A stretch of DNA of 64,000 nucleotides, from contig JADQAV010000015.1 of assembly GCA_019775845.1 (NCBI GenBank), positions 1,364,001 to 1,428,000 of the forward strand, written 5' to 3'. Shown piece by piece: positions 389 through 59,110 of this stretch. Source of the stretch: Myrmaecium sp. VS I D KN 1. Its lineage: Eukaryota; Ascomycota; Dothideomycetes; Valsariales; Valsariaceae. A program made the position numbers and the translations under genes. The notes beneath the pieces were generated by a model. That model made no database searches. It saw only the letters and a list, made by a program, of their open reading frames with translations, and was not told the origin of the DNA. Within the stretch, counting starts at the first letter, position 1; every line of letters begins with the position of its first letter.

Positions 389-862
389 TCAAGGGAGTTC
401 GTTCTCCTTATCCTCATCATTGTCTTCGTCGCTATCCAACTCTTCGGAGGACTTGCTCTTCTTCGCCTCGGGTTCTGCATTATCTTCATCAGCATCCATC
501 GAGGAAGCCTTGCGTTTGACCGATTCCGTCAAAAGCCCATCAGGGGGAGAAGAATCCATACCGTCTACGGATGTGGACGCCTCAGAAGATGACCCAAGCA
601 AGTCCGCATCCATCTTCTCTACGAGAGCCTCCATGCACTCCCGGGTCTCGTTCATTCCGCGGCGAGCGAACATCAGCTCTCGGCTGAGGACAGTAAGTCG
701 GAGAAGGTATCGAGGGGTCGACTCGTTGATACCGGTGAGGTTGTCTGCCAGCTCGCTCCAGTACTCGTTCAGAGTATGGTAGTGCTCTCGTAGAACGTAG
801 TGTTTTGCCGCGTCGGAGATCTGCGCCTGCATGATGTGGTAGGGAGAGATATAGAGATACAT
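389..862 (-). CDS. Small helical family member with acidic/basic tail (family member 1)
   Basis: 157 aa from the ATG at 862. The frame is open further upstream to 1285, but the upstream ATG-less part lacks the family pattern, so I chose the start that aligns with the relatives. Residues about 1-90 form a predicted helical domain whose second half (TVLSRELMFARRGMNET) aligns without gaps with three other proteins in the window. Residues 115-157 are a Lys/Arg- and Asp/Glu-rich tail (KRKASS, KKSKSS, EDNDEDKEN) suggesting nuclear location. No catalytic motif is seen. Function unknown; membership in a local family is inferred by eye alignment. Confidence 0.6.
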   Translation of the reverse strand: MYLYISPYHIMQAQISDAAKHYVLREHYHTLNEYWSELADNLTGINESTPRYLLRLTVLSRELMFARRGMNETRECMEALVEKMDADLLGSSSEASTSVDGMDSSPPDGLLTESVKRKASSMDADEDNAEPEAKKSKSSEELDSDEDNDEDKENELP

Positions 863-1361
863 TGTAATTGTTTTCGAAGGGGATCGTTGGATGTGGGTGT
901 TTCGAGATGGGTTGGTTTGGGAATAATTGTTTCGGGAAGAGTTGGATCGGGACGAGTTGGATTGGGAGGAGTTGGATCGGGGAGGATTGAGTCCAGGTCG
1001 TCCTTTTATGAAGATGGAATGCGGTTGAGCTATGTTAAGGTCACATCGAACGTCCTCCGTGACCGGTTCTCTTAACGTCTGGGTATTAGTAACTGTCCGC
1101 ATAGTTACGTACTGTGACTTATGAGTGTTCAAGCACGCCCCGCAATGGATGGACTTTGTAACGTACTGTATATAAAAACCTGGAACGTCGAACGGTAACC
1201 GGGCGAAATTTTGTTCATTAATTCTCCGGTGACACATGTTACCTATCTGCTTGCTCCGGACACAAACCTCCGGCCGTCTGTTCATGCTCCTATAGCATTA
1301 AGGACTTGGAGTTTCCTCTCATCATTGTCACGGCTCCTTTAACAGATAACGCTTTCTCAAT

Positions 1362-1706
1362 CTAGATGGTATAGCTCGATAGTGTCGCCCCACCGCATCC
1401 GCGAGGAGCCAGAATCCCCACCACCGCCTGCGGCGTCGTCAGAAACCGCCAGCCTTCATCAGTGCCTAAGGCTTTCAAGCAGTTGATCGTCGTCGCCATG
1501 TCCTCGCTCGTCGCCCTCAACTCTTCTTCTAGAAGTGCCGCTCGCCGGTAGTAGTTTGAAGTGGTCGGATCGAGGTTACGGCACATCTTCAAAATGGGTT
1601 GGAAGTGGTCGGCTTGGTAAAGGTAGTGCTTCCATAAGAGGTTTAGCTTTTCATCAATGGTAAATGTTGCCCTCGCGATCGTGAAGGCGAGGGTGGAACG
1701 CGGCAT
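1362..1706 (-). CDS. Small helical family member (family member 2)
   Basis: 114 aa, ATG in the context CTAACATGCC. A TATATA motif lies at about 1735-1742, some 30 nt upstream, so the leader would be very short. The N-terminal STLAFTIARATFTIDEK matches the TLA motif of two relatives (MTLADVNTILK, LTLAAITANTFLSK). The segment AALLEEELRATSEDMATT aligns gaplessly with the other family members. It lies 0.5 kb upstream of member 1 on the same strand, like a local duplicate. The tail after residue 85 shows no pattern. Function unknown. Confidence 0.6.
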   Translation of the reverse strand: MPRSTLAFTIARATFTIDEKLNLLWKHYLYQADHFQPILKMCRNLDPTTSNYYRRAALLEEELRATSEDMATTINCLKALGTDEGWRFLTTPQAVVGILAPRGCGGATLSSYTI

Positions 1707-1801
1707 GTTAGGCGGGGGTGTATTGGAGTGTGGGTATATATGTTGCTTTCTCTTGCTTTGCTACAATTATTGATGTTCTGTGGAAGACGGAGCACGTCAA
1801 G

Positions 1802-2453
1802 CTATCGCGTGATAGTTGACCTTCCTAGGAGGCGTACCGCAGTTTTAACAAGATCTTGAAATCGAGAAAATGTGTTATGACGGAACTGCTCGAGCGGGAG
1901 CAATGAAGTGAACGGTTGCAGAACAATGTCGACACAATGTTGTATCTGCACGCCCGGAGTGTAGTTCCGTAAACGTCGGAGTTCCAGAAGCGGGCCTCTT
2001 TCTTGGAGTATCAGGAGGAATATTGTTGCCTCTCCATGCCGCGCGGGCTCCCAGCAGGATTCACTGCCGGTTGATCGATTCCTGGCAATGACTTCTGCGC
2101 CCGAGGCCGACGGACAACGGAAGGCTAAACGAAAAGGCGTATCGATCAAGCTGAGCTTGGCTGTGCCTTGGTTTAAATCAGTAAACAGCCTCTTCATTCG
2201 CAGCGTCAGATATACGCACCATGCCTCCGAATTCCATGAATGCGGCCATGGCCATAGATGGACATGCTGATTCCGTAGCACCTGCACCAAGCAGCCTCTT
2301 CGTTGCCCATTGACCATCAGCAGCAGCCCGTATTCTGCCATCGTGATCGATCTTCGCAGCCAAAGGAAAGACCTCAGTCACTGAGGACAGAACGACGGTC
2401 CTGAGAAGCCTATAAAGAGTTCCAGACAGCCTGTCCAAGACGGTCTGCAGCAT
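1802..2453 (-). CDS. Unrecognised gene split between two frames (frameshift or unseen intron)
   Basis: The ATG at 2453 lies just below a TATATAATG box (about 2470). It opens 91 codons of protein-like sequence ending VRISDAANEEAVY at a stop near 2178. Protein-like sequence then goes on at once in the next frame, from FTDLNQGTAKLSLIDTP, to the stop at 1802. No GT-AG pair joins the two at that point, so a one-base indel, an assembly error or a recent break is likely. The second half has Leu-rich helical stretches. No family recognised. Confidence 0.4.
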
Positions 2454-3271
2454 GTGTCCTTCCCAGCATTATATAGGCTGTCCGTTTGCTCATAATCGCT
2501 CAGATGACGGATGGTGTTTCGTCAGCAACGGGCCGCTGTTGGCGTAGCGTTTGACGTGACTAGGTCACGGTAGTAGGTATGCTTTTTCACAGACCGGGTA
2601 TTTCTGGCTGGCGTTTGTTTCTCGTTTGATATCGTCTGCTGCTTGCGTTTTCTGCTGCTTGCGTTTTCTGCTGGTGCGGGTCTTGCGTAACGACGCTGCG
2701 GTTGCGCTGGAGCAGTAGTGTTGACTGATGTGGGTGCTTTGAGCTGGAGCTGCTGCACAATCGGATGGTGGGCTTGGTGGGCGTATGGAGCCAGGTGCTG
2801 GCAGGCAATTTGGGGACATGGAAATGTGGACTGAGATGTGCGGTGTTGGAGAGAGCGGCGGCTTGGATGCTGCTGCACCTTGGGCCTGTTTACTTTTTGG
2901 TAGAGGGTTCAATTTGTGTGCGTTTGCTTTCACTTCGATGTTTGCATACCGGTTGTCATCCAAAGAAAGATTAGAAAGAAATGATAGATGAAGTTGATGT
3001 GATGCTTTGATTGAGGAGATACTATTTAATGTGTATAGATGAAGAATTCCCTGCCCTCCGATCCATCTTCATTGACAAAGATTGATTTTTCCCTTCTTCA
3101 CTGACTTTCAACCAACTGACCATCCTCCTTGGAGCTCTGTTGTCCATGTATCATTGAAAAAGGCCGCAAAGGCATGAGGTTAGCGCTGTTGAAATACTAT
3201 GTAGCTATTTGAAACGCTTACTTTGTTTTGGGATGATATCCCACAGTGGTCTGCTCCGAGAAGTTTACAAT
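2454..3271. other. Intergenic, one weak minus-strand ORF
   Basis: The frame 2565-2963 on the minus strand is open for 132 codons and begins at an ATG, but it is Pro/Gln/Ser/Thr-rich and overlaps a second frame with near-identical tandem bits (the run CGTTTTCTGCTGCTTG is repeated at about 2645-2665). I cannot decide whether it is coding. The rest of the interval shows nothing clear. Confidence 0.3.
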
Positions 3272-3864
3272 TCACAGTTGAATGTCGAAAGGCGAAAGCG
3301 TCGAAGTCGAAAAAGGAAAAGAAGTAGAAAGAAAAGAAAGAAAGAATGAATGAATGTCCCCAAACCCCCCCCCCTCCGAAGAGGAACCGAAGTCACGAAC
3401 TGACCAGATTAGCGTAGAGGCGATTGCGGAATGAATTGAGATTCCCTCAGACATGATTGCGCAGAGTTTGGAAATTATCATTCCACTTCGTGTACCACTC
3501 CAGCGGAAGCAAGAGGGTTGCGAAGGGAGATCAAAGCGTTCTAACTTTGTCATCATCGGGGACGCTTTGATCACGGTCGAGACTGGCTCCACCTCGATGT
3601 CGACCCATGGCCCGCAGTTGGATCGACTGAGCGAGCTCGACCGGCTGCGTCGTTCCCCCCCCGGGTTCACCACCCCCCCGGGGGAGAAGGGGATTATTGG
3701 GTGAGTACTTACTCAGTCCTTGGTGTTGAGTCGTTTGATGTTATGCTTTCAGGCAAGTTCATTGTCAAGGGAGGTTGCGTGGTGTTGATGAAAGACGATG
3801 ACGGTGACAACTGGAATGGTGGAGTGCCGCGTTTGTTATTGGAAGTGCAAGAATGAACAAGCAT
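3272..3864 (-). CDS. Two-exon hypothetical protein, 168 aa
   Basis: A TATATAAATA box at 3999-4008 heads a typical C/A-rich leader. An upstream mini-ORF of 9 codons (MATSPLSSL) precedes the ATG at 3864. Exon 1 is 3864-3713. A donor GTAAGT at 3712 and an acceptor CTCAG before 3626 give an 86-nt intron that keeps the phase. Exon 2 runs to 3272. Exon 2 holds VDIEVEPVSTVIKASP and a hydrophobic stretch ending in a Ser/Phe-rich tail. The intron carries G and C homopolymers and lacks a clear branch site, which lowers confidence. A second in-frame ATG (MNLPESITSND) could be the true start. Confidence 0.42.
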
Positions 3865-3998
3865 GTTAGGGAAAAAGAAAAGACAAGATGTGATGGTTAA
3901 AGTGATGAGAGTGGTGAAGTTGCCATGTGTTGTCGGGTTGAGTTGTCGACGTTGGTTGAGGTGGAAGAAAGAAGACGGAGAGGAAGAGTCAGTGTGGG

Positions 3999-4008
3999 TA
4001 TTTATATA
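3999..4008 (-). promoter_or_regulatory. TATA box of the 3.3-3.9 kb gene
   Basis: TATATAAATA on the minus strand, followed by a C/A/T-rich leader without G runs, about 135 nt above the proposed ATG at 3864. The spacing fits a fungal core promoter with a leader of about 100 nt. Confidence 0.45.
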
Positions 4009-4043
4009 GAAGCAGAGGAGCCGCCCTGCTTAAGCGAAACGGA

Positions 4044-4361
4044 TCACTCCGCTCCGTCCAGCCGCTGCCGCGACCGGGGGGCAATCAGTATGTCTGCTCG
4101 GATATCCGAACTCACTGGGCCTGGATATGACTTGGATTCGTCCATAGCCTGTCCCGTCTTCCCTCGATGCTCTAGGTATAAACTTATTTCTCTCAGTTTT
4201 ACCCCCGTTTCACAGTGTGACTGCTTGCTGCGGCGGCTACCAAACCTTGCAATCCAGAGTATGGAATCGATGCTCTTTGTTAGCAGCTCATGCAGGCTTT
4301 CCAGGTACAGCTGCAGCACCACGAGAAACAATGAAGCATATCGTTCTGATTCTGCTCGCAT
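4044..4361 (-). CDS. Short ORF under a TATA box, 105 aa, doubtful
   Basis: ATG-started frame with a Leu-rich helical N-terminus (YLESLHELLTKSIDSIL). A TATATAAGG motif at about 4375 sits only 15 nt above the ATG, so the transcript start would fall inside the ORF. The helical N-terminus is reminiscent of the left-end family, but the diagnostic REL segment is missing. Could be chance. Confidence 0.25.
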   Translation of the reverse strand: MRAESERYASLFLVVLQLYLESLHELLTKSIDSILWIARFGSRRSKQSHCETGVKLREISLYLEHRGKTGQAMDESKSYPGPVSSDIRADILIAPRSRQRLDGAE

Positions 4362-4879
4362 CTCTCAAGAACAATCCCCTTATATATCGCAGCATCCTCT
4401 CAACCATAAAGACCCCTACTAGCCAATGGGGTGCATCATAGCATTGGTGTTCAATTCACCACTCCTTCACCTGGTGACTGTGATTTCAATCTACACTCAA
4501 CCCGTCACGCCCCAGCCACAAGCATTCACAGCCTATCCTTCACTCAATGGTAGAAGCGGTGTCCCGGGTCAATTATTGACGTCCTGTGGCGCATGCTTGC
4601 ACGTACTGTGCAGGCCTATAGCACGTTGAGCCGTCAGTTGCTGAACATCACGCGTTCCATTGTTCTCGTCAATCCGCGCCTTCAACGCGACCACTTAATC
4701 CTCGACTCAACCCACTACACCTACACACCCCGACTCCCCAACTCGTCGCTCATAGTTGACAAACTTCCTCCTCGCCAAACGACGACCCCGTATATTCAAG
4801 CTCTGGAAATACGTCCCTATCACACGCCTCTACAATCATCGCGTCGAGACTGCGCCTTCACATACCACCACAATAAGTC

Positions 4880-6262
4880 ATGTCCCACAGTGACTCTGCC
4901 GACATCGATCAAATGACGCTCGCCGACGTCAACACGATTCTCAAATCCGCCACCGGCAAAAGCGCTGAAGCCCTCAAACGTAGCGTCCTCTACCTCGACC
5001 ACCGCAACATGATCGAAGACGACTACTTGAAGCTCAAGAAGAGCGATCCTAGATATTTCTTCCGCCGCGCGGTCCTACACCGGGAGTTCGACGCTTCAAA
5101 TGATGGCATCCTTGCGACGGTCCGCCAGTCGCAGCAATATCATCTGGAAGAGCAGAAGCGAGAAGCAGCAAAAGGACGATCCCTTATAAAGCCTCCATCT
5201 CCGGTATCACCACCTGAACGAGAGGGAAAATCTACGTCTAGGCCGCTCAAGCGATTTCGTCCATCTGGCGAAGGAACATCTTCAGCGATGAGCGACAGCC
5301 GTACAAAGCATGATAAAGGAACTGCCGAATCTCGCCCATCCAAGCGTCCTCGAACCGACAGCGGGCCAAAACGACACTCCAAGCACCGGGACATGAACCC
5401 ATCCTCAAACGCGACTCACAAGAACCCCATAAGCCCTCCGGGGTGTACGCAGGCACAGTCCCACCAGCCTCGCAGTATCGCAGGCAAAGAGTCCTCTCGG
5501 CCGTTGAAGAAAATCCGCGAAGACGAACCCACCGCAGCACCTCAGCCTCCCAACGACAACAACAACAAGAACAACCAGCTCCCCTCCCCCCCGCTCTCCC
5601 GTCCACACAAGCGCCCTCGCACTCGGGCCCCAAGCGAGCCAGCAACCGCCACACAATCAAACCCACATCTCCTCGTCCCGCGCTCCCCCGGCTCCAACCC
5701 CTCACCAGCCCATCCAAAGCCTTCTGATTTCCCTGTCCCAGTCCGACGCGCGCGACACGGTGTACCGACCCGAGTCTGCCTTGCGCGGCGACAGCGAAAG
5801 ATCAGTTGGCCCCGGCCCCCTGGGTCGGTGGAGAAGCCAAGGCTGCGGAAGGCGTCGGGGTTGAGGGCGGTTTGCTTGGTGGAGGATGTGGATGTGCAGG
5901 AGAAAGTGCTGTGGGAGGACACGGAGGAGGATGAGGATGTGGATGCGCTGATGGTGAATGTAGCCGGGGATACGGAGGAGGATGAAGAGGAGGTGGTGGA
6001 GGAGTTGGCCAAGAAGGCGCGCGAAGATATTGCGGATGTGCATGACGAGGGTACCACGAATGGACCCAAGGACACCGAGGATGAGGTTATAAACAAACCC
6101 GCGGATGCAAAGGAAGACGAGGACGTGGAACCGGAAGACGAGCAGGAGCTCGAGGACCTGAGGGAGAGGATCAGGAGAACACACAAGACGCTTGCTCGCC
6201 TTCGGGCGGAGTACGTGACGCGGTGTTCTTCTAGCAACCGTGCGAAGCGGAGGAGGGTCTGA
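4880..6262 (+). CDS. Family member 3: helical domain plus long nuclear-type tail, 460 aa
   Basis: ATG in AAGTCATGTCC context after a C/A-rich leader, with CGTATATTC about 90 nt upstream. Residues 11-92 are the family domain: MTLADVNTILK start and AVLHREFDASNDGILAT core. The rest is disordered. A short basic motif of the form RP-x-K-[RK]-x-R occurs four times, at residues 121-127, 152-158, 207-213 and 241-247, like repeated nuclear localisation signals. Residues about 330-425 are strongly acidic. A charged helix (LRERIRRTHKTLARLRAEY) and the basic end AKRRRV close the protein. This suggests a nuclear or DNA/chromatin-associated role, which is inference only. Confidence 0.65.
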   Translation: MSHSDSADIDQMTLADVNTILKSATGKSAEALKRSVLYLDHRNMIEDDYLKLKKSDPRYFFRRAVLHREFDASNDGILATVRQSQQYHLEEQKREAAKGRSLIKPPSPVSPPEREGKSTSRPLKRFRPSGEGTSSAMSDSRTKHDKGTAESRPSKRPRTDSGPKRHSKHRDMNPSSNATHKNPISPPGCTQAQSHQPRSIAGKESSRPLKKIREDEPTAAPQPPNDNNNKNNQLPSPPLSRPHKRPRTRAPSEPATATQSNPHLLVPRSPGSNPSPAHPKPSDFPVPVRRARHGVPTRVCLARRQRKISWPRPPGSVEKPRLRKASGLRAVCLVEDVDVQEKVLWEDTEEDEDVDALMVNVAGDTEEDEEEVVEELAKKAREDIADVHDEGTTNGPKDTEDEVINKPADAKEDEDVEPEDEQELEDLRERIRRTHKTLARLRAEYVTRCSSSNRAKRRRV

Positions 6263-6270
6263 AGTCTGGT

Positions 6271-6486
6271 TTAACGCAGCTCTTTACGGAGAGCGGCGCT
6301 CCATCCAGGACACCTATAAATCTGGGATCGATAGAGCAACATACATGGGGAAGCTATATATCCGGGAATGACCAGCCTCTGGGAGTGGACAGCGAAATCG
6401 CTACGGCGAACTGTCCACTGCTCACCGCCCGAGCTACTTGCTGGGAAGTCAGCAGGGCGTGTGGGTAACTTCCGGGGGTTCGGCAT
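6271..6486 (-). CDS. Short ORF, 71 aa, doubtful
   Basis: ATG-started frame ending 9 nt past the end of family member 3 on the other strand. A CGTATATACC box lies about 15 nt above the ATG, too close for a normal leader. Contains PASSSGGEQW and a Cys/Tyr-rich middle. No relatives seen. Confidence 0.22.
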   Translation of the reverse strand: MPNPRKLPTRPADFPASSSGGEQWTVRRSDFAVHSQRLVIPGYIASPCMLLYRSQIYRCPGWSAALRKELR

Positions 6487-6725
6487 ACACGGACTAGGTA
6501 TATACGTGGGAAGAGGAAGTCTAGGGAAAGCCTGAACGCGCGTGGATCTTTCGGGACATCCGTGCTGTTTTGTTTTCTTCCTGGACAGATCGGTCGATAT
6601 ACGGATGGTCGCTCACGGGACTTGCTGGGAATTCGTACTTCAATATATATTCATTCTTCAATCATAATTCGTATTCCCTTGAACCGATACATCTTCAACT
6701 CTCGTCTCGAAACCTCATCGAACCC

Positions 6726-6854
6726 CATATATAAGCCCTCCACAAGTAATACGAGACGGCAGACAACCTGAAGATTGCGAGCATCACCGCCAACACTTAT
6801 CTCTCCAAAGCTGCGTTGAAGCGGACAATTATGATAAATACTCCGTCCCACTAG
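6726..6854 (+). pseudogene. Relic of the small helical family (related to member 4)
   Basis: The frame from 6756 starts ACG where member 4 has ATG. It reads TADNLKIASITANTYLSK against MADDLTLAAITANTFLSK, 12 of 18 identical, then departs and stops at TAG 6852-6854. The nucleotides around the lost start also match member 4 (ATACGAGACGGCAGAC against ATACAAGATGGCAGAC). A TATATAAG box remains at 6728-6735. It is a truncated, start-less copy of a host family gene. Confidence 0.7.
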
Positions 6855-7294
6855 GTTGTACTGCCGCTCTTGTATCTGTATGGATGAAGCCTAAAGTCAA
6901 GATGAGGAACAGCGTCCGGTATGCTTGTCATGGAACGGCTGGCCACATAAGAAGGTCAACACCGAGAAAACAGATAGGCAGTGTATAGATCACCGGTCCC
7001 AATAGCAGTGATCTCAGCAGACGAGAAATTGAACGGTATAAAAAGCAGTAATCGAAATTCTTGAGGTAGCGTGTGGCAATAAGGGAGGCGAGGGCAATGT
7101 CCGATACTACTGCAACAACAACAACAAGACAACGTTCGACAATACATCAGACCTATATAGGAAAGAATAGCTAAATATGTATGAACGACAGCAGGCAGCA
7201 CGCAGTACACGACCTATCGTATATGTTAATTTCACCAGCAAACTCTCAAATTACTCGCTTTCTTCCTCAAGTGCTTGGAACTACCAAGAGCATC

Positions 7295-7450
7295 TCAATG
7301 GAAAAAAAAAGGGCCAGTAGACATGAGCGGGAGGCCCAGCGGCCTACCGGCACTTCCAAAGATTCCCACCGGAGTTTCCCCCAAGTGGAGCGCCTCTACA
7401 CTGAATTTTTGAGCTCCAGGCCGGGATCCCTCTCTATCCCCTTCGGCCAT
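7295..7450 (-). CDS. Short protein, 51 aa, under a strong TATA box
   Basis: TATAAAAG at 7543-7550 is followed by a pyrimidine-rich leader with five TTTCC units. A first ATG opens a 19-codon mini-ORF; the second ATG at 7450 opens MAEGDREGSRPGAQKFSVEA and runs to 7295. The protein is Gly-rich and ends in Phe-Phe-Phe-His encoded by a T run. No family recognised. The TATA, leader and ATG order is convincing; the product is not. Confidence 0.38.
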   Translation of the reverse strand: MAEGDREGSRPGAQKFSVEALHLGETPVGIFGSAGRPLGLPLMSTGPFFFH

Positions 7451-7542
7451 CGGAGCCCCGCCGCAGCGTGTATTCAGCTCGAGACGATTGCATGAAGAGG
7501 AAAGGAAAGGAAAGGAAAGGAGCTGAGAAAGTAGAGGAGGCC

Positions 7543-7550
7543 CTTTTATA
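7543..7550 (-). promoter_or_regulatory. TATA box TATAAAAG
   Basis: Canonical TATAAAAG on the minus strand, about 95 nt above the proposed start at 7450, with a (GGAAA)n pentanucleotide run (7500-7520, plus-strand reading) between them. Confidence 0.5.
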
Positions 7551-8033
7551 GACGAATCTGCCCGGCCTGTCAAGAGTCTCGGTTAACGTGCGTGAGGAGA
7601 TGTACAGACGGGTTGAGGTCAAGGACATGGACGGGATGGAGGTAGAGAGACAGGGGTGGAAGCAGAGAGACAGGGGTCGAGGCAGACGGGGGAGACACGG
7701 CTGGCATGTGATTGCCTGTTGTTGTTTTGGCATCCGTCGTGTATGTGGGCTTCCCGCGTCGGTCGTAGACTTGGGGGAAACAACGTCCCTCACACGCACT
7801 CAAGGTAAGTCACTGTCTGCCTTTTCCATGAGATTTCGTCATGATTCGTCCTTGAAAAAGTAAACTGCTATTCGATGTCAAGCCAGATGGTTTTACATGC
7901 ACTCATCTTGAACGTCATTGCAGCTGATGCTGCTTGGAATGGGTGCTTCTTGCTTCCAATGCGGCGAGAACCACAGCAGCCCTTCGTTACTCAACAGTCT
8001 CATCTCTTTGAATGACTAAGCGAATGAACTGTC

Positions 8034-8041
8034 TTATATAG
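8034..8041 (+). promoter_or_regulatory. TATA box of family member 4
   Basis: TTATATAG followed by a C/T/A-rich leader of about 70 nt that ends CAATACAAGATGG. The same leader end is recognisable at the relic at 6756. Confidence 0.5.
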
Positions 8042-8112
8042 AATCTCCTCTTATAACCAGAACCTCCTCCTCTTCAAACCAGTATCTCTCCACCATCAGC
8101 CATCAATACAAG

Positions 8113-8361
8113 ATGGCAGACGACCTCACACTGGCCGCCATCACCGCCAACACTTTCCTCTCAAAAGAGGAAAAGGAAGGAGCACTTTTCGAGCTCCTTG
8201 ACGGACAGAGGCGTCACTTCGACGCCATCCGGCAAAGGCTTGGGGCCAACATGGCGCACCGGCTCGGCCGCACATTGGCCATCCAGAGAGAGCTTGCGGC
8301 GACTGTCGACGACATCGCCAGGACGCTTCAAGCGTTGAGGGAGATCGCCGCGGAAGCTTGA
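8113..8361 (+). CDS. Family member 4: stand-alone helical domain, 82 aa
   Basis: The shortest full member. It begins MADDLTLAAITANTFLSK and has the core AIQRELAATVDDIARTLQAL, which aligns gaplessly with members 1-3 (Glu-Leu/Phe and a Thr 10 residues later conserved). The whole protein is predicted helical, with no tail, signal peptide or membrane segment. Because it is domain-only, it marks the limits of the family domain (about 80 residues). Function unknown. Confidence 0.68.
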   Translation: MADDLTLAAITANTFLSKEEKEGALFELLDGQRRHFDAIRQRLGANMAHRLGRTLAIQRELAATVDDIARTLQALREIAAEA

Positions 8362-9095: not shown

Positions 9096-9653
9096 TCAAA
9101 ACATCCTCCAGTCGTTGCCCGGGTCGATCCAAGGCTCGTAGCTCTCGCCTCCTTGGCCATCTTCGTCCAAGGCCTCCTTCAGCTTCATGCCGACGGCCTC
9201 GATCTTCTTCTTCAGCGCAGTATGCTGCTTGTGCAGCTCCTGCCCTTCTTTGGCAAACTTCTGCATCTTCTCCGGCAGCACCTCGCTCTTGTACTGCAGG
9301 GAGCCCAGCTTGCCGCGGAGCTTCTTGAGGTCGCGGTCCTTTGCCGCGGGTCCGGACGACGCGGCGAGAAGTTTGGCGACGGCGGCCGTCATGGCCTTGG
9401 CCGCAGGGAGGGCAGCGAACTGCGAGGCGTTGTCTGATGGATGTATGGTCAGCTAGAAGCCCTTTTGATTCAACTCGCGACGGTGGTTACCTTGGATGTC
9501 TTTAGGAGGAGCTTCCTTGCTCGGGCCGCTGTCAAGGTCTTCGGTGGCCTTGCTAACGCTGACGGGAGGAACGCAGCGACTGCCTTTGGTGAAGGCGCGA
9601 GTGGTGACCAGCAATGGCAGCTTGGTGGCGACGAGCTTTGAAAAAGAAGACAT
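9096..9653 (-). CDS. Two-exon coiled-coil protein, 166 aa, possible mitochondrial presequence
   Basis: Exon 1 is 9653-9491. The intron 9490-9434 (57 nt) has donor GTAACC, branch GCTGAC and acceptor ATCAG. Exon 2 is 9433-9096. The phase-1 join gives DIQDNASQF. Residues 1-24 are basic/hydroxylated with no acidic residue (KLPLLVTTRAFTKGSR), typical of a mitochondrial targeting signal. Residues about 75-145 are Lys/Leu-rich and helical (DLKKLRGKL, KMQKFAKEGQELHKQH, ALKKKIEAV), a likely coiled coil. The end is acidic and Trp-containing. Family not recognised. Confidence 0.65.
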
Positions 9654-15044: not shown

Positions 15045-15399
15045 GGCTGTTAGGACTATCTAACAGGGAGGCCGCGTGATGGCGGAAGTCGTATAGTTTT
15101 TAATACTCATTCTTCAAATGAGCTCGTCGAATTATCGCTTGAATATGTTCTCGTATATATTACTTCTCAACGATCTGGGGAAGCAACCCTGGGGTCACCT
15201 GAGACACATGTTTTCACTTGCACTGCAGGGTCCTCTTTTCACCAAGAAATCGACGTTTACGTGGCGATTAATTCACCGTCTTTAGAAAAGAAGCAGTATA
15301 AGCCCCAGCGACCGCGATCGCGACGTCGACCTCCGCGCGGTTCCAGGCGCCGTCGGTAGGGAAACGGCATCGCCCCACCTCCTAACATGATATGAATCC

Positions 15400-15894
15400 T
15401 TACTGGGCCGCAACGAAACATACGCGGCTTCGCCCACGTCCATGCCCGGCGCTCGGCGCACGGCCGTGACGGTTAAACCGACGATTTGGGTCCCGTGCCA
15501 CAGTTGTGTCCGGACCTCGGCGGGCCAGGAGGACGAAGGCTTCTCGTTTGGGGGTGTTCGGATGGTAGAAATACGGTCTGCGTGAGAGTATTTCGTATAT
15601 ATTGGTAGGGGAATGAACTGGCGAGGACGAAAGCCGATCGGGATCGCGACGGCGGCAGCGTGGGAGGTAGGTAATACCTAGACTTTTCCTGCCCGGAGCC
15701 CACAGAGCCAGATGAGGCGGCGGCGAAGGCAACGACGACAACTTCTGAGCGTTTCGCGAAGACGAAGGGAGAACGAGTTGTGATTCGACGGAGCGTGAGC
15801 AGGCTCGCCTGCGGAGGCGCTTCCTCAGCTGGTCGAGAAGACGTTGCGCTTTGTTCCAGAGGTCTTTGAAGCTGAGAGGGAGGAGGCAGGGCAT
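15400..15894 (-). CDS. Basic hypothetical protein, 164 aa
   Basis: The leader ends CCACAACAACAATGCCC, a very strong fungal start context, with CTATAACTC about 70 nt above. Residues 8-32 are a basic helix (FKDLWNKAQRLLDQLRKRLRRR). The rest is Pro/Ser/Arg-rich with clusters of Arg and His near the end. The total charge is strongly positive, which suggests nucleic acid binding; this is inference. A second frame is open across the same DNA (15473-16039) but lacks such a start. Confidence 0.5.
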   Translation of the reverse strand: MPCLLPLSFKDLWNKAQRLLDQLRKRLRRRACSRSVESQLVLPSSSRNAQKLSSLPSPPPHLALWAPGRKSLGITYLPRCRRRDPDRLSSSPVHSPTNIYEILSRRPYFYHPNTPKREAFVLLARRGPDTTVARDPNRRFNRHGRAPSAGHGRGRSRVCFVAAQ

Positions 15895-20167: not shown

Positions 20168-20641
20168 TTAAGATCGCTTTATACCCGTTACTCGTGTATG
20201 TATCCGCAGCCTCGTGCCGGTGGTACGGTCGCTCGGTAGGATCATTGCAGCGCATGAGAGAAGAGCGAAGTTCTGAGCCTTGGAGCCCATCCCATTGTGT
20301 CGTGACGTAGCCGTAAAGGGTGCCAATCGAACCGTCGACTGGGTGGAAATTTGGGCGTACTCTCTGGCCCTTTTCAGGCCAGTCAGGGCAGTGAAGCTGT
20401 CGATTTGCAGCCGCTTGGATGGGTGGTAGCGGCGGTAGTGTAGGACTCGAGGGACGTTGCTCGCGTCGCGCAACTGATACGCATAGTCTTTAACGTTCCC
20501 AGTCGTTGAGAAGCTACGTTGAGAAGCCGAATGATAGCAACATTCCTGTTCATGTGTGTAACTATTTGTAGGTATCGTGAGGTGTGATGCGGAGATGTGA
20601 ACAAAGTACCCTGCCGTTCTTTGTCGGAAATGGAACTTCAT
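20168..20641 (-). CDS. Hypothetical protein, 157 aa
   Basis: ATG at 20641 (MKFHFRQRTAGYFVHISASH). The frame is also open upstream to 20821 without ATG. His/Tyr/Arg-rich with a basic middle (YRRYHPSKRLQ) and Thr/Arg-rich end. No motif or membrane segment. Judged only on length and composition. Confidence 0.33.
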   Translation of the reverse strand: MKFHFRQRTAGYFVHISASHLTIPTNSYTHEQECCYHSASQRSFSTTGNVKDYAYQLRDASNVPRVLHYRRYHPSKRLQIDSFTALTGLKRAREYAQISTQSTVRLAPFTATSRHNGMGSKAQNFALLSCAAMILPSDRTTGTRLRIHTRVTGIKRS

Positions 20642-29064: not shown

Positions 29065-29116
29065 CCAGTCCCGGCACCGGCCGCGTGCTCCGCAGCCAGT
29101 CGCGTTCTCCGCAGTC

Positions 29117-29380
29117 AGTGCTGGTGCCGGCGGTGGGCGTGTGAGGATGCGACAGTCTTCACGTCGGCCGCAGCAGCGTGCTCCACGGTTTCCACAACCC
29201 TGGCGCCGGCGCCGGCTGCGGGGGTGGTATACGAGATTGCAGCAGACCTTCGCGCCGGCCGCGTTCTGCGCAGCCAGTGCTGGTGCCGGCTGTGGGCGTG
29301 TGACAATGCGGCAGTCCTTGCGGCGGTCGCAGCAGCGTGCTCCACGGTTTCCACAGCCATGGCGCTGGCGCCGGCCGGTG
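29117..29380. repeat. In-frame 159-bp repeat following the 28.6-29.1 kb gene
   Basis: Two diverged copies (starting at 29118 and 29277) of a unit with GTGCTGGTGCCGGC at the front, then GCGTGTGA..ATGCG.CAGTC and CAGCAGCGTGCTCCACGG. 159 is a multiple of three. On the plus strand both copies read MRQS.RR.QQRAPRFPQPW; on the minus strand VETVEHAAA. Shorter relatives lie upstream inside the gene. Confidence 0.7.
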
Positions 29381-29459
29381 GGGTATCAAGTGGATTATGG
29401 CAGTGGTGATGAAGGGAGAGAGGAGGAGATGAAGGATAGTGAGGAAGGAAGTGGATGAT

Positions 29460-40301: not shown

Positions 40302-43300
40302 TCAACGCTCCTCATTCTTGATCGGCACCCAGATGAACTGCCAGAGCCTAGGGTAGTACACTGCCGGCGCACCCTCCAGACCAGGCACAACCCCAAATCC
40401 ATGGCGGCTCACCCACTCCTCCTGGGCATCCAAGATCCTCGTCCAAAACGCGGTCAACCAGGGGAACTTGGCAGGAAAAGTCTCAATCTGCCACCGCACC
40501 CACTCCGCCTCATCCTGATCCCCGGCAACGAAGGGGATGGATGATGGGTGCTCGATGTACTCCGGTATGCGGAGATAGCGCCAGCTGCAAAAAAGGCATT
40601 GGCCTGCTGGCATCGGGGCTCGTAGGTCCAGGCGGCAGAGTTCGCATTCGTTGTAGCATAGCGGGCAGACGTCTTGGGCGGGTGCCGGGACGACTGAAGC
40701 CGGATGGAGGACCTGGGTTGGGGCCGGATGCTGGTCGGGAGTCGCGGGTCCAGTGAGAGTGATCATGGGAATTTCAGGCGGGCTGGATGGGGGAGCGGTC
40801 TGGCGCGATGCAGTGATGGCCCGGTTGGGAATGGTGAGGCCGTTGCTGCCGACCTGACGGGTCTGATGAGTTTGCCTAGCCTGACGGTTCTGTTTAGCAC
40901 GTCCGAGTGCTTGTTCGAATGTCATGTCGCTAGTATAGGGTGGAGACGATGGGGGAACGAGGATGGTGGCCTCGCTGCCCGCATCCTGGTCTTCGTTGGC
41001 CGCAGCCAAGTGAATGGAATTGTAATGACTCGGCTGAGGGAAGTCATCCTCATCTTCGTCCATATCATCAGACTTGTTAGATTGAGCAACCGTCTCGGTG
41101 TCGCTGTCTTCCTGTTTAACCTTGACGATATTCTCTGGATGTCGAGCAGCCTGTTTGCGCTTCACCGGTGGGCCGGTCGTATTGACGAATTTCCATGTGA
41201 CTCCGGCTTTGGGTTTGTCCTGAGCCAAGGGACGGGTTAGTGCTTTCTGCTGAGACTGGGACTGCACTAGGGCCTTAGCCTTTAATCCATCAGGATGACT
41301 GGAGGTGCTAGCAAGAAGTTTGCGGTCAAACGCAGTCGTGGCACGCTGGCGGCCCTGCAGCCTCGCCAAGCGCTCGCCAAAGGGTGATTCTTCAAGCAAC
41401 TGCTGGTAGCTCATACCTTCATTGCTAACAGCGGCTTTGGCATTATCAGCCAGACGATGTTCTGGGGTGTTCTTGCCCTGCTCGAGATTGTCTTTGTCTT
41501 CCAAGACTTCTTGCATCGTAGCATCAGGATCGATCTTCTCGGGCTCTTCGTCAGATGGCGCATCGCCCATAATCTCATCACTGTCAAAGACATTGTCTCC
41601 ATCGACGCCAATCTGGCTAGTCGTATCATGGCGATCAAGCAGACGAGCATGGTTGCCATGCTCATCATCCTCTTGATCCATCGCACCATCCATACCCCAA
41701 ATCGAATTGTTCCCGTATAGAAACTTTCCAAAGCTGCAAACTTCGTCAAGGTTAGTTTCAGAGGTAGGATTAGCGGCATATTTCGTATTTAGTGCAGCAG
41801 CGTCGTGCTGATCAAGTGCGGCAGGCTCGCCGCTGTTCGCGTTCCCCAGGTTCTGATAGTATTCAGGGTCATCTTCACCCTCAGCATCACCTTCAGATCC
41901 AAGATCATCTTGCAGCCGGCGCGCAGCCTCAGCTTCAGTGGCAGCCCCAGCCTGGGGGTACGCATCAGCAACCCCAGTCGTGACTCCATCCCCGCTCTGC
42001 ACCTCCTCATCAACACCAAAGTCAACAAGGTCCTTCCACCACTCGCCGAGGACAGGCAACTCCTTAGCTGCCTTCGGACCCGGACCCATCGTGCGCTCAA
42101 CATCATCTTCAAAAAAGAAACCCTCGAACGTCTCCTCTTGCTGCTGCATCATCGGCAGCGTCATATGGGCTACCGGCGCCACCTGCGCCTGCATGCTCGC
42201 ATACTGCGCCGCCGCCGCAGCAGAAGCCGCCGCCGCCGCCGCACTTGGCTGAGCGAAGTCATCCTTCGCCCGCTCGCCATTTTCAAAGTAAAACCCTTCG
42301 AACCCGTCGTTGACGAAGTCGACGTATGAGCTTCCGGGGATGGGTTTACCATGGACTGCGGCAGCCGCGGTTATAGCTGGTGCTGCGGTTGCAGTGGTGA
42401 CTGGGTTTTTCTTCGGGCGCCCTGTGCGACGGCGTGGGGCGCTGCTGCCATCGCTGCTCTTCGTTTTGGAGACTTTGCGGCCTTTGGGCCCGCTGCTGGG
42501 TGTGGGCAAGTCGCTGGTGCTGGCTTTGCGTTTGCGACGTTGACGGGTGCGCTTGGGGGGGTTTGCGGCTCCTTTGGTGGTTTCGTTGGCCGCTTGGGAG
42601 CTGTCTTTGTGGGCTTTCTTGGTTGGGCTCGTAGAATTGATGTTCTTGCCCTTAGCAGTGAGATTGGCAGTCATGTTGTTGTCCACGTTGGAAGTAGCAC
42701 CAGTATTAGCAGCAGAATGAACTTGAGCAGCGTTCAAGCCAACTTTGTAGCTATTCCCATGAAGAGGAGTCGGCCCAGCAGCGAAGGCGCCAGGCACGAT
42801 ATTCTTGGCACCAGCGCCAGGAATGAAGTTGATATTGGGAACAGCGTTGACGTTGTAGTTATTAGCACCAGTAGCTGCACCTCCGGCAACGCCAGCACCA
42901 GGTACAAAAGGATACCAAGGATTCTGCTGGATAGCAGTTTGGTATGTCATGCCGTTCGTACTGCGGCGATTGACATTCGCAGCCACCATCACCGTAGCAA
43001 AAGCCCCATACTTAACATTGTCGTTGACAGGAAACCTGCCCCCAGCGGCGTAGGGGTTAGGATTGACGTTGTTGACACTACCTTGAGCAACGATATTCTT
43101 ATCAGCAACAGCGTTGGCATTGCCAGCGTATGCACCACTAGAAGTAACTCCAGTCGTACGAGCATCGTTGAAATAAGCGCTTGGAACACCGCTGCGATTA
43201 GCGACGGTATTGCTGTTATAGGCATTCGTATCAGGTATAGCCAGCCCGGCGCCGAAGCCAGTTGCTGCAAAGCGCTTGCGAGCGTTCTGCTGGCAAGAAG

Positions 43301-43754
43301 AGTTGTTCGGCATAACGCCGGGGTTGTAGGAAGGCTGAGATGCGAAGCTCTGCGTTGTGTAGACGTAGTTGTTGCCAGCGGGAACGCCGGTGGGTATGTG
43401 AGAGGGCAAAGGTGTGTTCTTGAACTGTTGCTGTTGTTGTGCTTGTGTGGTGGGTACGTTATAGAACAAAGCTGCGTTGTTGACTTGTTGTTGAGGCAGT
43501 TGCTGTGCTTGCTGGAGGGGTTGGTTCCAGTAAGGCATCTGCGTGTTGAAGTTGCTCATGCCCATTCCGTTTGGTGGGTAGTTTGGGTAGATGTGATTTG
43601 GGTCGACGGAGGTCTGATTCATGTTCGAATTGAATGTTCCTTGGCCATTGAAGGTGTTGTTCGGCCATGTGGATGGGTCAATGGTACTTAGTTCCGCTAA
43701 TAGCAGATTGGGATCGTTGCTCTGCTGGACTTTGTCCGGATTGGGACTGTCCAT
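40302..43754 (-). CDS. Asn/Gln/Ala-rich AT-hook protein, 1150 aa
   Basis: Single exon; ATG in CCGACACCATGGAC. Residues 1-360 are low-complexity, rich in Asn, Gln, Ala, Gly and Tyr (prion-like composition). 401-410 is a basic cluster (KRTRQRRKRK). 441-451 (RRRTGRPKKNP) is a classical AT-hook core. 500-900 is acidic and disordered with Ala runs. Near the end Cys1030, 1033, 1037, 1040, 1053 and 1056 form three CxxC pairs, followed by a folded, Trp-rich C-terminus (FPWLTAFWTRILDAQEEW). It suggests a nuclear DNA-associated protein with a zinc-binding region. Family not recognised; related pieces lie at 46.3 and 47.8 kb. Confidence 0.8.
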   Translation of the reverse strand: MDSPNPDKVQQSNDPNLLLAELSTIDPSTWPNNTFNGQGTFNSNMNQTSVDPNHIYPNYPPNGMGMSNFNTQMPYWNQPLQQAQQLPQQQVNNAALFYNVPTTQAQQQQQFKNTPLPSHIPTGVPAGNNYVYTTQSFASQPSYNPGVMPNNSSCQQNARKRFAATGFGAGLAIPDTNAYNSNTVANRSGVPSAYFNDARTTGVTSSGAYAGNANAVADKNIVAQGSVNNVNPNPYAAGGRFPVNDNVKYGAFATVMVAANVNRRSTNGMTYQTAIQQNPWYPFVPGAGVAGGAATGANNYNVNAVPNINFIPGAGAKNIVPGAFAAGPTPLHGNSYKVGLNAAQVHSAANTGATSNVDNNMTANLTAKGKNINSTSPTKKAHKDSSQAANETTKGAANPPKRTRQRRKRKASTSDLPTPSSGPKGRKVSKTKSSDGSSAPRRRTGRPKKNPVTTATAAPAITAAAAVHGKPIPGSSYVDFVNDGFEGFYFENGERAKDDFAQPSAAAAAASAAAAAQYASMQAQVAPVAHMTLPMMQQQEETFEGFFFEDDVERTMGPGPKAAKELPVLGEWWKDLVDFGVDEEVQSGDGVTTGVADAYPQAGAATEAEAARRLQDDLGSEGDAEGEDDPEYYQNLGNANSGEPAALDQHDAAALNTKYAANPTSETNLDEVCSFGKFLYGNNSIWGMDGAMDQEDDEHGNHARLLDRHDTTSQIGVDGDNVFDSDEIMGDAPSDEEPEKIDPDATMQEVLEDKDNLEQGKNTPEHRLADNAKAAVSNEGMSYQQLLEESPFGERLARLQGRQRATTAFDRKLLASTSSHPDGLKAKALVQSQSQQKALTRPLAQDKPKAGVTWKFVNTTGPPVKRKQAARHPENIVKVKQEDSDTETVAQSNKSDDMDEDEDDFPQPSHYNSIHLAAANEDQDAGSEATILVPPSSPPYTSDMTFEQALGRAKQNRQARQTHQTRQVGSNGLTIPNRAITASRQTAPPSSPPEIPMITLTGPATPDQHPAPTQVLHPASVVPAPAQDVCPLCYNECELCRLDLRAPMPAGQCLFCSWRYLRIPEYIEHPSSIPFVAGDQDEAEWVRWQIETFPAKFPWLTAFWTRILDAQEEWVSRHGFGVVPGLEGAPAVYYPRLWQFIWVPIKNEER

Positions 43755-47016: not shown

Positions 47017-47475
47017 CTAGATAGTGATCCAGTGGCCATCCCACCCCTGAAACAGGTGGGCCTTTGGATATCCCCCGAAGCCGCTGTCCAGTGTGTCGGC
47101 ATGGCCTACTGCAGAGGGTGAAAATACGCTTCCATTTCTCCACATGACTGGTTCCTCCGCGACCGCATCATCCTAATCAGGAATGGCGAGAGGCACCCAG
47201 TCTTTTCAGAATGCCGGAGTTTGACGATTCTTCCATAGCTGCCTCATTGTCCTTTTGACGCCCTTCGTTGCCAGCTTGACTTCCATCCCTATGACTCTCT
47301 TTCACTCTCTCTTTCTCGTTTCGCGCCGTCGCCACTCGCTCAGGTGGTGCGTCTGTTACCGGCAGAACCTTCCAATCGCCTTGCATTCCTATAGTATACC
47401 TACTTACGTCGCCGGAAACACGTTATATCCCGATCTCTTACTGCCTAACCTGCGCCCTCTTCGGTCGCCTCTACT

Positions 47476-48560
47476 GTGTATACCGCGGACCCTTCCGGCA
47501 TTCCTAATCCCTCCGCAGGCTCTCTCCCTCTGTTAACACCGCCCCAGAAGCTTCGCGAACCCGCGCATCCGTTCTCTCGCACCTTTACGCCCTCTACGGT
47601 GCTTACCTTACCTACGACGTCGCCGCCATCGGCCTGGCCAAACGCCGTCTGGCAACAACTCTGGAACGGCACACAAGGCCACGCGCTGACCATGGCATCC
47701 GTGCGTCTGGCGCTTGGCTTCGACGGTGGCGAGGCCACGGCGGGCCACGGCCAAGTTCCTCTTCACCGAGGAGCTCCGTCGCCGCGATCTCACCTTGGAC
47801 GGGCGACCAAGCCTAACCCCAACGCTGCTGGTGGCAAATTTCCTGTCGATGACACAACAGCGCATGTCGCGGCCCCGTTGCTGCACCCACAGTGGCCGCC
47901 TGGCCGCGGTTAGACTAAGCGGCGGTAGAGCGCGGCGATCGACCTACGGCCGCGTCTATCGCCTAGGTAGTCCGTCTCCGCTACGTCGACAAGCCTCGTC
48001 GGGGCGTACCCCAGCCACGAGCGACGGATACCTTTGAGCGCGATGATCTTCTTTCGGCCCCGTCCGTCCCGTCCGACGCCCTGCCGGCCGTCCTGTCTGG
48101 GGCATCCACGCCGGCCCTGTCGATCTTGTCGCTCTTTCAGTCCACGATCCGCACGCCGGAACGGGTGGAGCCGGCGGTAGATGTAGACAGCACCCTAGTA
48201 TTGGGCTTCGCGAGCATTTCCATTCGTCCCGCCCGCGTCCTCCGCAGGTGGGCGTGTTGTGGCATCTTGGGCCAACCGGCGTTCCGGAGCAGACCCGGTC
48301 CAACTCACCGGCGAAAGTCGTTTGTCGGTTCGATTCGAGACGATTCCATGTTATCGCTCATCTGGGAATCCAGGCGGTGGATGATTGGTCTGGAATGCTT
48401 GAGCTTCACCAATGGCGGCCTTCTACCTATGCTACGATATCAACTGACGACCAGCGCGGTATACGCTGCGACCGCGTAATTCGTATTCGCACTTATCGAT
48501 ATATAAGCCGCCGGCCTTCTGCTTCATCAGCCGCCGGTTCGCTACCTTCGGGACGGAGTT
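47476..48560 (+). pseudogene. Degraded coding region; one part related to the AT-hook protein
   Basis: Protein-like stretches lie in changing frames: AVWQQLWNGTQGHALTMASV, then ATAKFLFTEELRRRDLTLDG, then STIRTPERVEPAVDVDSTL, then HVIAHLGIQAVDDWSGMLEL. At about 47,815 PNPNAAGGKFPVDD matches residues 231-245 of the AT-hook protein (PNPYAAGGRFPVND), also at DNA level (CTGCTGGTGGCAAATTTCCTGTC). No consistent splice sites link the pieces, so I read this as a host-gene relic, possibly more than one. Confidence 0.42.
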
Positions 48561-55301: not shown

Positions 55302-56245
55302 GTACCTTAGGACTCGGTGACCCGGGGTAGTCGAAGGTATGGAGTATTGAGGGGATATTGACAATTAAGCGGGCTCCTATAATGATTATAGTATCGAAAA
55401 GATCTTCGGTGCTTTCCATCCAGCGGTAGCAAATGACAGAAAACTTTGCTTAAAAATCCTCGTATCTTCTAATACTGCCTATGGCAATATCCACCCGTGA
55501 ATTCCCATGGACAGACTACAAATGCTGGCGTAACCGCAAGCTCATTCACTTTCGAACTTCATCTCTCTTCTTAAGACTGTTCACATTTTACATCGTTGCG
55601 TCTCTGTTATCAGGAACTGGGGGAAATGCCCACAATGAATGGTGTTAGCTGATATGCGCGTGGGGGAAGCCCGCATTGGATATATCTAGGAGATGGTGCA
55701 GTCTGCACGTTATGCCAGAGATAGTCTGGCTCGTGGACGTTGGTATCGCATGTTGGAATATTGGATAATATTTAAATTATTTCATATTATATAGAACTTA
55801 CGACCAATGCGCATCAATATATCAAGCTCCAGCAGCTGACGCCGTCTTCTTCTCTGGGCCGTCCGCGTTGCCAAATTCCACTCCCAATCTCTTGCTCCTC
55901 CCCTCGAACATACCTGCAGGCGTTTCGTGTCCGCTGATACCAAGATCCTTATTACCAGCCGGACCAATCAGGCCAACGCACAATCTCTGTGATACCCAGC
56001 CCATTTTGACGTCCACCAGCCTCCGGAGCCTCAATGTCAGGACATGAAAATGAAACCACTACACCAAAGGGCAGCGGCCTGTATAGTTTTGGGGGCCAAG
56101 CGCTGTTTGTGAAAGGCCGTCGGTTCCCGGGTCCACCTCCCAACGTACCTCTAGCGCGAGATAGCCATGTGTCTTGGGATCAGCCTACCTGGCGCATGGG
56201 GAATACAAATCCAGGGTTTGCAAGGTAATATGATTCCCCTGGTCT
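55302..56245. other. Intergenic, no supported gene
   Basis: AT-rich patch at 55,765-55,800. A plus-strand frame at 56034-56228 (MSGHENETTTPKGSGLYSFG) is open for 64 codons but has no promoter signal. Confidence 0.4.
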
Positions 56246-56249
56246 TGCT

Positions 56250-57480
56250 GTCTATAACTCCCGCTGTCGGTGCACTGCCCAGTGTCTGCTTTCAGGTTTC
56301 TCTTGCACCCGTGTTTCTCCGGCAATCCGATCTCGTTTTGTTAGGTACCATAGGCTAGATGGCACCTGACGGTATTTATCGTGGCGTGGAGTGCCGATGC
56401 GATGCGATTCCATCCTTGTGCCCAGGTCCAAAGGGGACATGTCTCCATTTTTTCTATTCCCCCACTCCTTAGACTGCCGGGTGTGCTGGTGCGCATTGTC
56501 CGATGGACCATTGAAGTACCTCCTCGTACTGAAGGAGCAGGTTATTCCGTATAGAAGTTGAGCTGAGCTTTTTATCTGGCTCCCACAGGCGTCCCGGCTC
56601 ATAAGTGACTTTGAATCTCTATACCATGCTAGCGGCCACTTCACGTATCTTGGGTTAAATCCAGGGACCTTTTGTCGTTCTGAGCGACGACTTCCGTCTC
56701 GGTAGTTGATGGTTTCAGTCCCATAGTATAATGATGTGAATGATTCTGGACTTTATTTCGTTGTATATTCTTCCTTTGCTTTTTCCACTCCCGCCATCTG
56801 GCCACTGGTCCTTGTAAGACTGTGTAGTCGGCTGGCAAGCCATGGTATTCTCTCCCATTCTGGGGATCTATTGCCGGGAACCATTTGACTGTGGTCATCA
56901 TATCCAGGTCTTTCCCTCCAGTCCGGCTCCGATGTGTTCCGAGGGTTCAACACCAAACACGTATGAAATGCGAAAGTAATACTCTTAGGAACATCGTTGT
57001 CAGTAATCCCTCAAGGAACGAGAAGGGTTGTTGAGCTTAGCGTCCAGGGAAAGGAAAGCGCAGGCCTTAAGGTTGTTGTTCCATCCTGATAATGAAGAGA
57101 CAGATTGTAGGTGGAATCTACCCTCCAACTATTATCGTGGTTCTCTCGGTGAGCAGCGTCCGTTCTATTTGGACAATGGTCCTTTGGATGGTCTGTAGGA
57201 CCGCGTTTTGCAAGCTTCGTAGTCCAGAAAGTGAAGTAATGTATCTCCAATCCCATTGGAATCCCAGTTGCCCTTTGGCTCGTTGCTGAAACAATGGTGA
57301 ACCCCTCCGCATATGTTGTTGCCGACAACTGAACAATCCATTGTTGAAGCCCTCCCTTCAAACTCGAGATTGACGGGGATCCATTCAACTCGCGGCCCGG
57401 TGTCTGCCTTGAGCGTACCTATGTACTGTATGCCTGCGCTCGCCTTTACGCTCCCCATATTCTATAGCTCCTGTTGCAAA
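56250..57480 (-). pseudogene. Degraded or multi-exon coding sequence, unclassified
   Basis: Protein-like stretches on the minus strand lie in changing frames: VNLEFEGRASTMDCSVVGNN near 57,370, DSTYNLSLHYQDGTTTLRPA near 57,090, NGREYHGLPADYTVLQGPVA near 56,850. The upper one is preceded by TTGCAACAG, an acceptor-like site. I found no consistent splice pairs and recognise no family. It lies next to the RIP block. Confidence 0.35.
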
Positions 57481-57822
57481 CAAGCAAAGAGATGTCGCAA
57501 TAACCACCACCAGGCCTTTCAGCTGTTTTTACCTTCTCTTTTAACGTTGCTCTCGAGGTTTGGAGGCGGCCCGGATCATAAGACAAGTGCATTTTTCGGA
57601 AAACTGCTTCTGCTAGGATATTGCTTTGTTTAGCTTTTGGGGGCTGTAACGGGTCTGCCCAATTTGCGATCATCAATACGTGCGTAGTTCTGGTCCGATG
57701 GACTATAAAAAGCCTTAATCAGGTGTTATTAATTTTCCAGTTAAGGTAGATATTACGGTATACTTTATTTTATTTTACCGCCTAGGCTGGACGTCCTACC
57801 GCCCTCCTATATTCTGCTATAG

Positions 57823-58620
57823 GCTTAGAAGCTAGATATATACTAGGGATAGATTACCGGTAGTAGATTAAGTATCTAGGTATAAGTATATATAATATAT
57901 CTAAGGCTAAGTAATTAAGTTAAGATTTATAATTTTTATTCCTAGAAACTTCTATTTTAGTATAGTTTCTATATTTTTATCCTAGCTCTCCCTTTATACC
58001 CTAGTATTCTTATAATACTAAAGATCTAGATTAAAAGGTATAGCGTTAGTAATAGTAAGAATTTATATTTCCTTAATATAGAGTCTAACTATTATATAAG
58101 TAAGATACGTTTTAGGGAAAATTAACTTAAACAGCGTTTAAACGCTAGCTTTAGTGGTAACCCCTATATTCTCCTATATATTATATATAAAAGTACTTTA
58201 TACCGCTTTTATATTATAACCTACGAATAAAGTATAAACTTAAACTACTATAAAGAAGTATTATTAATAAGTACTTAAGATTAGGAAAAGTAATAAAAGG
58301 GAATAAAAAAATACTAAAAAAACTAGTAGCTCTCTTTAATTAAGCGTATTATCCTTAGTATAGAGCTATAAGAGTTAGTTAATAATTACTTTAGTTTAAT
58401 AGAGAATCGAACTACTTATACTATATTAATCTTTTCTATATTATATTAATTTAACTAAATACCCGAAGGCGAAAGGGTAAACTATATATACTTATAAATA
58501 TACTAGCTATAGCTTATTATCTATTTAATAGGCGATAAGCTGGCTACGCTATATACGTTTTTATATATATCTTTGTACTACTAATATAGTTAACTTTACC
58601 CTTAACTACGTTTATAGCGG
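57823..58620. mobile_element. RIP-altered relic of a repeated element, family unknown
   Basis: About 800 bp at roughly 70% A+T in which CpA and TpG are nearly absent: between 57,823 and 58,537 I find only two, while TpA is everywhere and CpG is kept. That is the footprint of RIP acting on a multi-copy sequence. The element's class cannot be read; no terminal repeats or coding motifs survive. It is an old, heavily altered fossil. Composition grades back to normal at about 57,720-57,820 and 58,620-58,790. Confidence 0.75.
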
Positions 58621-59110
58621 CGCATAGTCTCTATACACACGTAACTATAACGCCTATATAACTACTATTATAGTCTTTCCTAGCAGCCTTTCTAACGAAC
58701 TATATCGATTAATTCTTATACTAACGGTATACTCTCTCTACTATTTACCTTCTAACCTGCTAAGCTTACTGTTTACTAATTACCGAATCGCTCCATCTGA
58801 CTTTACAGTAGGCCGACATAAGCAACTGTCCGCACTTCCCAAGCCAGCTTCCACGGTCTTATATTCCCTCACGAAAGCGCGTTCTCACGGCAGTACTTCC
58901 TTATATCTTGATAACGTACCACCCGACGGTGTTACGCTCAGCTCACTGTCTTCCCTCTCTACCATATCCATCGGAATTTCGACCGGAACACGCAAAATCA
59001 AGGTACGCTATACACGCAATCTTTCGTTTACCACATCATGGCGCTCTAGGCTAACGTTATCATGATTAGCAACCAATCCGCTTTAAGATGACGTCCGCTG
59101 AATCCGCCGA

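Follow-up and report, generated by a model that had tools for sequence, protein, structure and literature searches.

Four clustered fungal open reading frames share a small, predicted helical domain that lacks a Pfam match

Four open reading frames (ORFs) lie within 8 kb near the start of a 64-kb stretch of fungal DNA, hereafter the window, which raises the question of whether they encode one protein family and what their common part would do. The first-pass annotation had described them as a local paralogue family with a shared helical domain, and its coordinates, lengths (157, 114, 460 and 82 aa) and quoted core sequences are all correct. The four ORFs are as follows.

389 to 862, minus strand: P1, 157 aa in one open frame, with a helical domain at about residues 1-85 and an acidic tail that contains a KKSK (PEAKKSK) patch
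1362 to 1706, minus strand: P2, 114 aa, with a helical domain at about residues 1-84 followed by about 30 low-charge residues
4880 to 6262, plus strand: P3, 460 aa, with a helical domain at about residues 9-91 and a long low-complexity tail
8113 to 8361, plus strand: P4, 82 aa, the bare domain

The gap-free alignment of the four cores was reproduced, and the tripeptide TLA occurs near the N-terminus of every member except P1. The description of the domain as occurring either alone or with a charged tail fits P4, which is bare, and P1 and P3, which carry basic and acidic tails, but does not extend to P2, which has a low-charge tail with one K/R and zero D/E among its last 24 residues. With respect to signal peptides, all four N-termini were inspected by eye only and lack a long hydrophobic core. 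The open frame of P1 continues upstream to 1285, and an extension of the protein in this frame was rejected because the best-scoring part starts near 862. This upstream portion of the frame contains a 15-bp minisatellite of 3.3 copies at 932-981.

To evaluate the kinship of the four proteins, we aligned their first 95 residues (82 in P4) locally, with 2000 shuffles as the background. Four of the six pairs showed significant similarity (P2-P4, z 9.0; P1-P2, z 7.3; P1-P3, z 5.6; P2-P3, z 4.0), and the five pairs for which identity is reported are 16-27% identical. Direct similarity was not significant against the same number of shuffles for P1-P4 (z -0.6) and P3-P4 (z 0.9), which means that P4 is linked to the family via P2 only. 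Using profiles built with one member left out and searched against 1906 six-frame segments of the window, each at least 20 aa long, we found that the omitted member ranked first among non-members in all four cases, with E-values of 5.5e-4 for P1, 1.3e-3 for P2, 6.3e-4 for P3 and 5.3e-3 for P4. In comparison, the lowest E-value from 100 decoy profiles with shuffled columns and four rows was 0.076, and the full profile reached 0.55 on reversed segments. One alternative is that unrelated helix-rich ORFs resemble each other by chance, a reading that could draw on the two pairs without direct significance and on the fact that the four ORFs were originally chosen by eye. However, the recovery of all four omitted members from the full set of window segments, the decoys that did no better than 0.076 and the pairwise z-scores make chance the least probable of the explanations considered here, and we reject it. 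Together with a structural model of the P2 domain described below, these comparisons uphold the proposed shared domain and provide solid support, at the level of sequence, for common ancestry of P1 to P4. Residues invariant in the four-row alignments are an Arg, a Glu and a Thr that lie in the last helix, together with a Lys and a Leu ahead of it, with the first Met also invariant in one of these alignments, although a list drawn from four rows says little. The invariant Lys of P3 is placed via a six-residue gap; the gap-free local alignment of P2 and P3 starts beyond this gap and needs none.

The family was also expected to yield additional members upon profile search, and this expectation failed within the 64-kb window, where neither the full profile nor the leave-one-out profiles led us to accept a further full member among the 1906 segments. 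Apart from a relic near P4, the next segments found by the full profile were 47611-47943 (E 0.57), 47209-47301 (E 1.5) and 20386-20637 (E 3.4), and the lowest leave-one-out E-value of any other non-member was 0.21 (47611-47943). The relic, whose presence had been suggested, is detectable in the DNA, though it is short.

6748 to 6810, plus strand: P4-like relic of 63 bp, 78% identical in DNA to 8105-8167 (E 1e-6)

The relic translates as ADNLKIASITANTYLSK, which corresponds to ADDLTLAAITANTFLSK in P4, and it has no start codon and differs from P4 at 8 of 17 compared codons, with 5 of these differences changing the residue. Its flanks did not resemble those of P4 in shuffle tests of about 200 bp upstream (p 0.34) and 250 bp downstream (p 0.90), and the remainder of any such copy was undetectable. 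Protein profiles gave weak scores for the relic (E 1.2 with the full profile and 0.027-3.9 with the leave-one-out profiles), which would not be acceptable on their own. Judged by its sequence, the relic seems to be a piece of the 5' end of P4 itself or of a closely similar copy. Birth and death of copies is therefore a plausible history for this family, one suggested by a single 63-bp relic and by the low identity between the copies.

We next consider whether the four ORFs are coding. Codon usage was learned from five other ORFs, and scores were compared with those of stop-free stretches in gene-poor parts; because these null stretches, each of 70 codons, overlap one another, the resulting percentages are rough. 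Whole P1 scored higher than all 381 null stretches, and its first 85 residues scored higher than 99% of them. The first 95 residues of P3, as well as P4, scored above all but 0.3% of the null stretches. The final 130 residues of P3 outscored every one, but its middle part was weak, with 14.2% of the null stretches scoring as high. Support for P2 was weak, with 4.2% of null stretches reaching the score of its first 82 residues and 7.9% that of the whole ORF. A candidate gene antisense to P3 was rejected, as its open frame looks noncoding (52.5% of null stretches score equally high).

The domain had been thought to match no well-known family, and searches of Pfam, NCBIfam, PHROGs, PDB and Foldseek agree, having turned up no relative of known function. 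None of the four proteins reached the curated cut-off in Pfam-A, where Apo-CIII came closest with its match to P1 (E 0.0014; 18.6 bits, with 34.1 required), or in NCBIfam, where the best match was TIGR00253 (E 0.0033; 17.9 bits against 78.5) at residues 324-386 of P3, which lie in the tail and outside the domain. PHROGs gave no significant match, with one of the four domain sequences at E 0.25, and a profile search of PDB sequences returned no relationship (best E 0.077). In single-sequence scans, which reach close relatives only, viral contigs yielded 10, 58, 1 and 9 stretches that matched the patterns of the four domains, and prokaryote genomes yielded 100 stretches that matched the pattern of the P2 domain; none was confirmed in either set. 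This lack of viral and prokaryote relatives is as expected for a fungal family, and the titles and abstracts consulted do not describe such a family. These searches also bear on the idea that the locus is a selfish or conflict system, such as a meiotic driver or an incompatibility or killer-type locus. Clustering, divergence and the relic would all be accounted for in this way. Strongly diverged proteins accompanied by a relic inside 8 kb are what such a system might leave, but P1 to P4 contain no domain at the Pfam cut-off, and the only match among 15 other ORFs or segments tested in the window was of the APH type, and we regard this idea as quite improbable.

To describe the fold of the domain, we modelled P2 with AlphaFold2 from the four-row alignment. 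The best model (pLDDT 85.1, pTM 0.71) predicts helices at residues 6-12, 17-43 and 52-80, that is, a short helix and a two-helix hairpin, from an alignment of only four rows and with the other four models scoring lower (71-77). P4 modelled alone with no alignment, an approach that often gives poor models, was predicted to form helices at residues 2-15 and 18-81, the second being one long helix with no hairpin (pLDDT 89.6, pTM 0.54). The comparison of folds is ambiguous because the two models agree on the first helix and on the start of the second at residue 17-18 but disagree at the hairpin turn. As read from the sequence, the turn is STPRY in P1 and SDPRY in P3, a typical helix start, and the turn of P4 has no proline. 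P4 may truly differ in fold, forming an extended coiled coil, for instance. When alignment columns were averaged, all three helices fell short of significant amphipathicity (p 0.07, 0.23 and 0.29 by shuffling). In Foldseek searches, none of 292 PDB matches (E<=10) and none of 658 BFVD matches reached E <=0.001, the best values being 0.47 and 0.18, respectively. The best 50 of the 292 PDB matches, all of them weak, include helical hairpins as well as designed heterodimers of hairpins. The CHMP4B hairpin (4abm), the Rtt103 coiled coil (5m48) and a designed heterodimer (6dkm) resemble the P2 model in general shape, yet they share only 11-21% identity with it and fall among the matches outside E <=0.001. 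E-values are a weak guide for small helical folds, and therefore a structural relative may have been missed.

The tails of the family had been called nuclear-type, and as sequence motifs this holds strongly for P3, marginally for P1 and not for P2 or P4. The P3 tail features an acidic stretch, a charged C-terminus with a KRRRV end and the following repeated motif.

5237 to 5620, plus strand: four SRPxK[KR]xR motifs of P3, at residues 120, 151, 206 and 240

The expected number of these motifs is 0.00, and 0 of 2000 shuffles contained as many, for a pattern that was defined after P3 had been inspected. P3 also contains six K[KR]x[KR] patches where 1.10 would be expected (p 0.001), P1 contains one (p 0.07, marginal) in its tail, in which 22 of 67 residues are acidic, and P2 and P4 contain none. 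The bipartite pattern of nuclear localization signals (NLS) was no commoner in P3 than chance would give (2 found against 1.13 expected, p 0.31) and was absent from P1, P2 and P4. These counts indicate NLS-like tails on two of the four members, of which one is convincing. Basic patches are not peculiar to this family; they also occur in a 1150-aa ORF on the minus strand at 40302-43754, which has much low complexity, a Cys-containing C-terminus and no Pfam match.

What might such a family do? Our leading reading, to which we assign a probability of about 0.4, is that P1 to P4 represent a fungal paralogue family built on an interaction module of about 80 residues, some copies of which enter the nucleus by means of NLS-like tails. 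The domain would consist of a short N-terminal helix and two longer helices and act in protein-protein interaction, a role we infer because it is all-helical and has no enzymatic signature. Nuclear targeting is suggested by the tail motifs, and the charged tails of P1 and P3 would carry the module into the nucleus. The bare or near-bare copies, P4 and P2, would presumably have the same binding partners but no tail of this kind. The family is probably lineage-restricted. Orphan, or lineage-restricted, paralogue families occur in filamentous fungi, and the present cluster is like them in its clustered ORFs that can be read as single exons, its uncatalogued domain and its nearby relic, with the difference that P3 is long (460 aa).

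A less probable reading is that the four are orphan paralogues with no present-day common function, in which the domain is left over from old duplications, the tails were gained independently and some ORFs, P2 first, are decaying. The low identity between copies, the tails that differ from member to member, the weak coding signal of P2 and the dead fragment at 6748-6810 are all consistent with this account. However, a gap-free core has been retained in four open ORFs, and three of the four show codon use like that of the other long ORFs of the window (P3 at both ends), which argues against general decay. We consider orphan paralogues without a common function somewhat less probable than the interaction module, which we retain as the preferred reading.

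A more specific version of that reading arises from microProteins (reviewed in PMC6003976), which consist of a single domain and interfere with larger, multi-domain relatives. Single-domain P4 beside P3, with its domain and long tail, agrees with this outline in domain architecture, whereas the copies here have diverged to 16-27% identity (five pairs). By this analogy, P1 and P3 might act in the nucleus through a helical dimerization domain, and P4 and P2 might pair with and restrain them. Such antagonism is compatible with the anatomy of the proteins, and we give it a small chance of being correct. The cluster is significant as a strongly diverged yet well-supported set of paralogues with a common domain and no Pfam match, which came to light in 64 kb of raw sequence. 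Should the domain turn out to be widespread in fungi, it would merit a family entry, and its bare and tailed copies would offer a testable case of paralogue interference; at present, it is another uncharacterised gene family.

We also considered whether the cluster is a domesticated transposon or gag-like fragment that multiplied locally. A short helical domain with a basic tail recalls gag proteins, and composition at 56001-60000 resembles the pattern of repeat-induced point mutation (RIP), with AT-richer sequence (GC 0.44), TpA/ApT of 1.21 and (CpA+TpG)/(ApC+GpT) of 0.89, which suggests repeats elsewhere in the window. However, the RIP signal is absent at 1-12 kb (TpA/ApT 0.64-0.71), self-comparison of the window (E 0.01) revealed no repeat at 1-9.6 kb except the relic pair, beyond short tandem repeats, and P1 to P4 have no Pfam match. 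We therefore reject the view that the cluster arose through RIP or from a transposon, for which only a slim chance remains. Proximity to a telomere was likewise rejected, as doubled TTAGGG is absent from the window.

The rest of the window has few long ORFs, with 17 of at least 180 aa overlapping 12-64 kb when introns are unmodelled; together with the RIP-like composition at 56-60 kb, this points to a filamentous ascomycete as the probable source. A plus-strand ORF at 53787-55301 matches the APH phosphotransferase type (PF01636, E 3.4e-15). On the minus strand, 9096-9653 may be a two-exon gene, spliced by eye, in which 9456-9653 would encode a basic, perhaps mitochondrial N-terminus and 9096-9452 a helical exon; their open segments have codon scores of 30.7 and 14.4, respectively, and some probably noncoding segments score at least as high as the latter. 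A 131-bp direct repeat (29095-29225 and 29254-29384) is 85% identical, and the translations of 15391-15582 (plus) and 47448-47762 (minus) are 48% identical over 48 residues (E 8.6e-7), perhaps as a dispersed repeat. Finally, Rfam identifies a tRNA gene on the minus strand at 60168-60262 (47 bits), which ARAGORN missed with bacterial code settings; the gene is 95 bases long and the model has 71 positions, a difference that suggests an intron or an extended variable arm.
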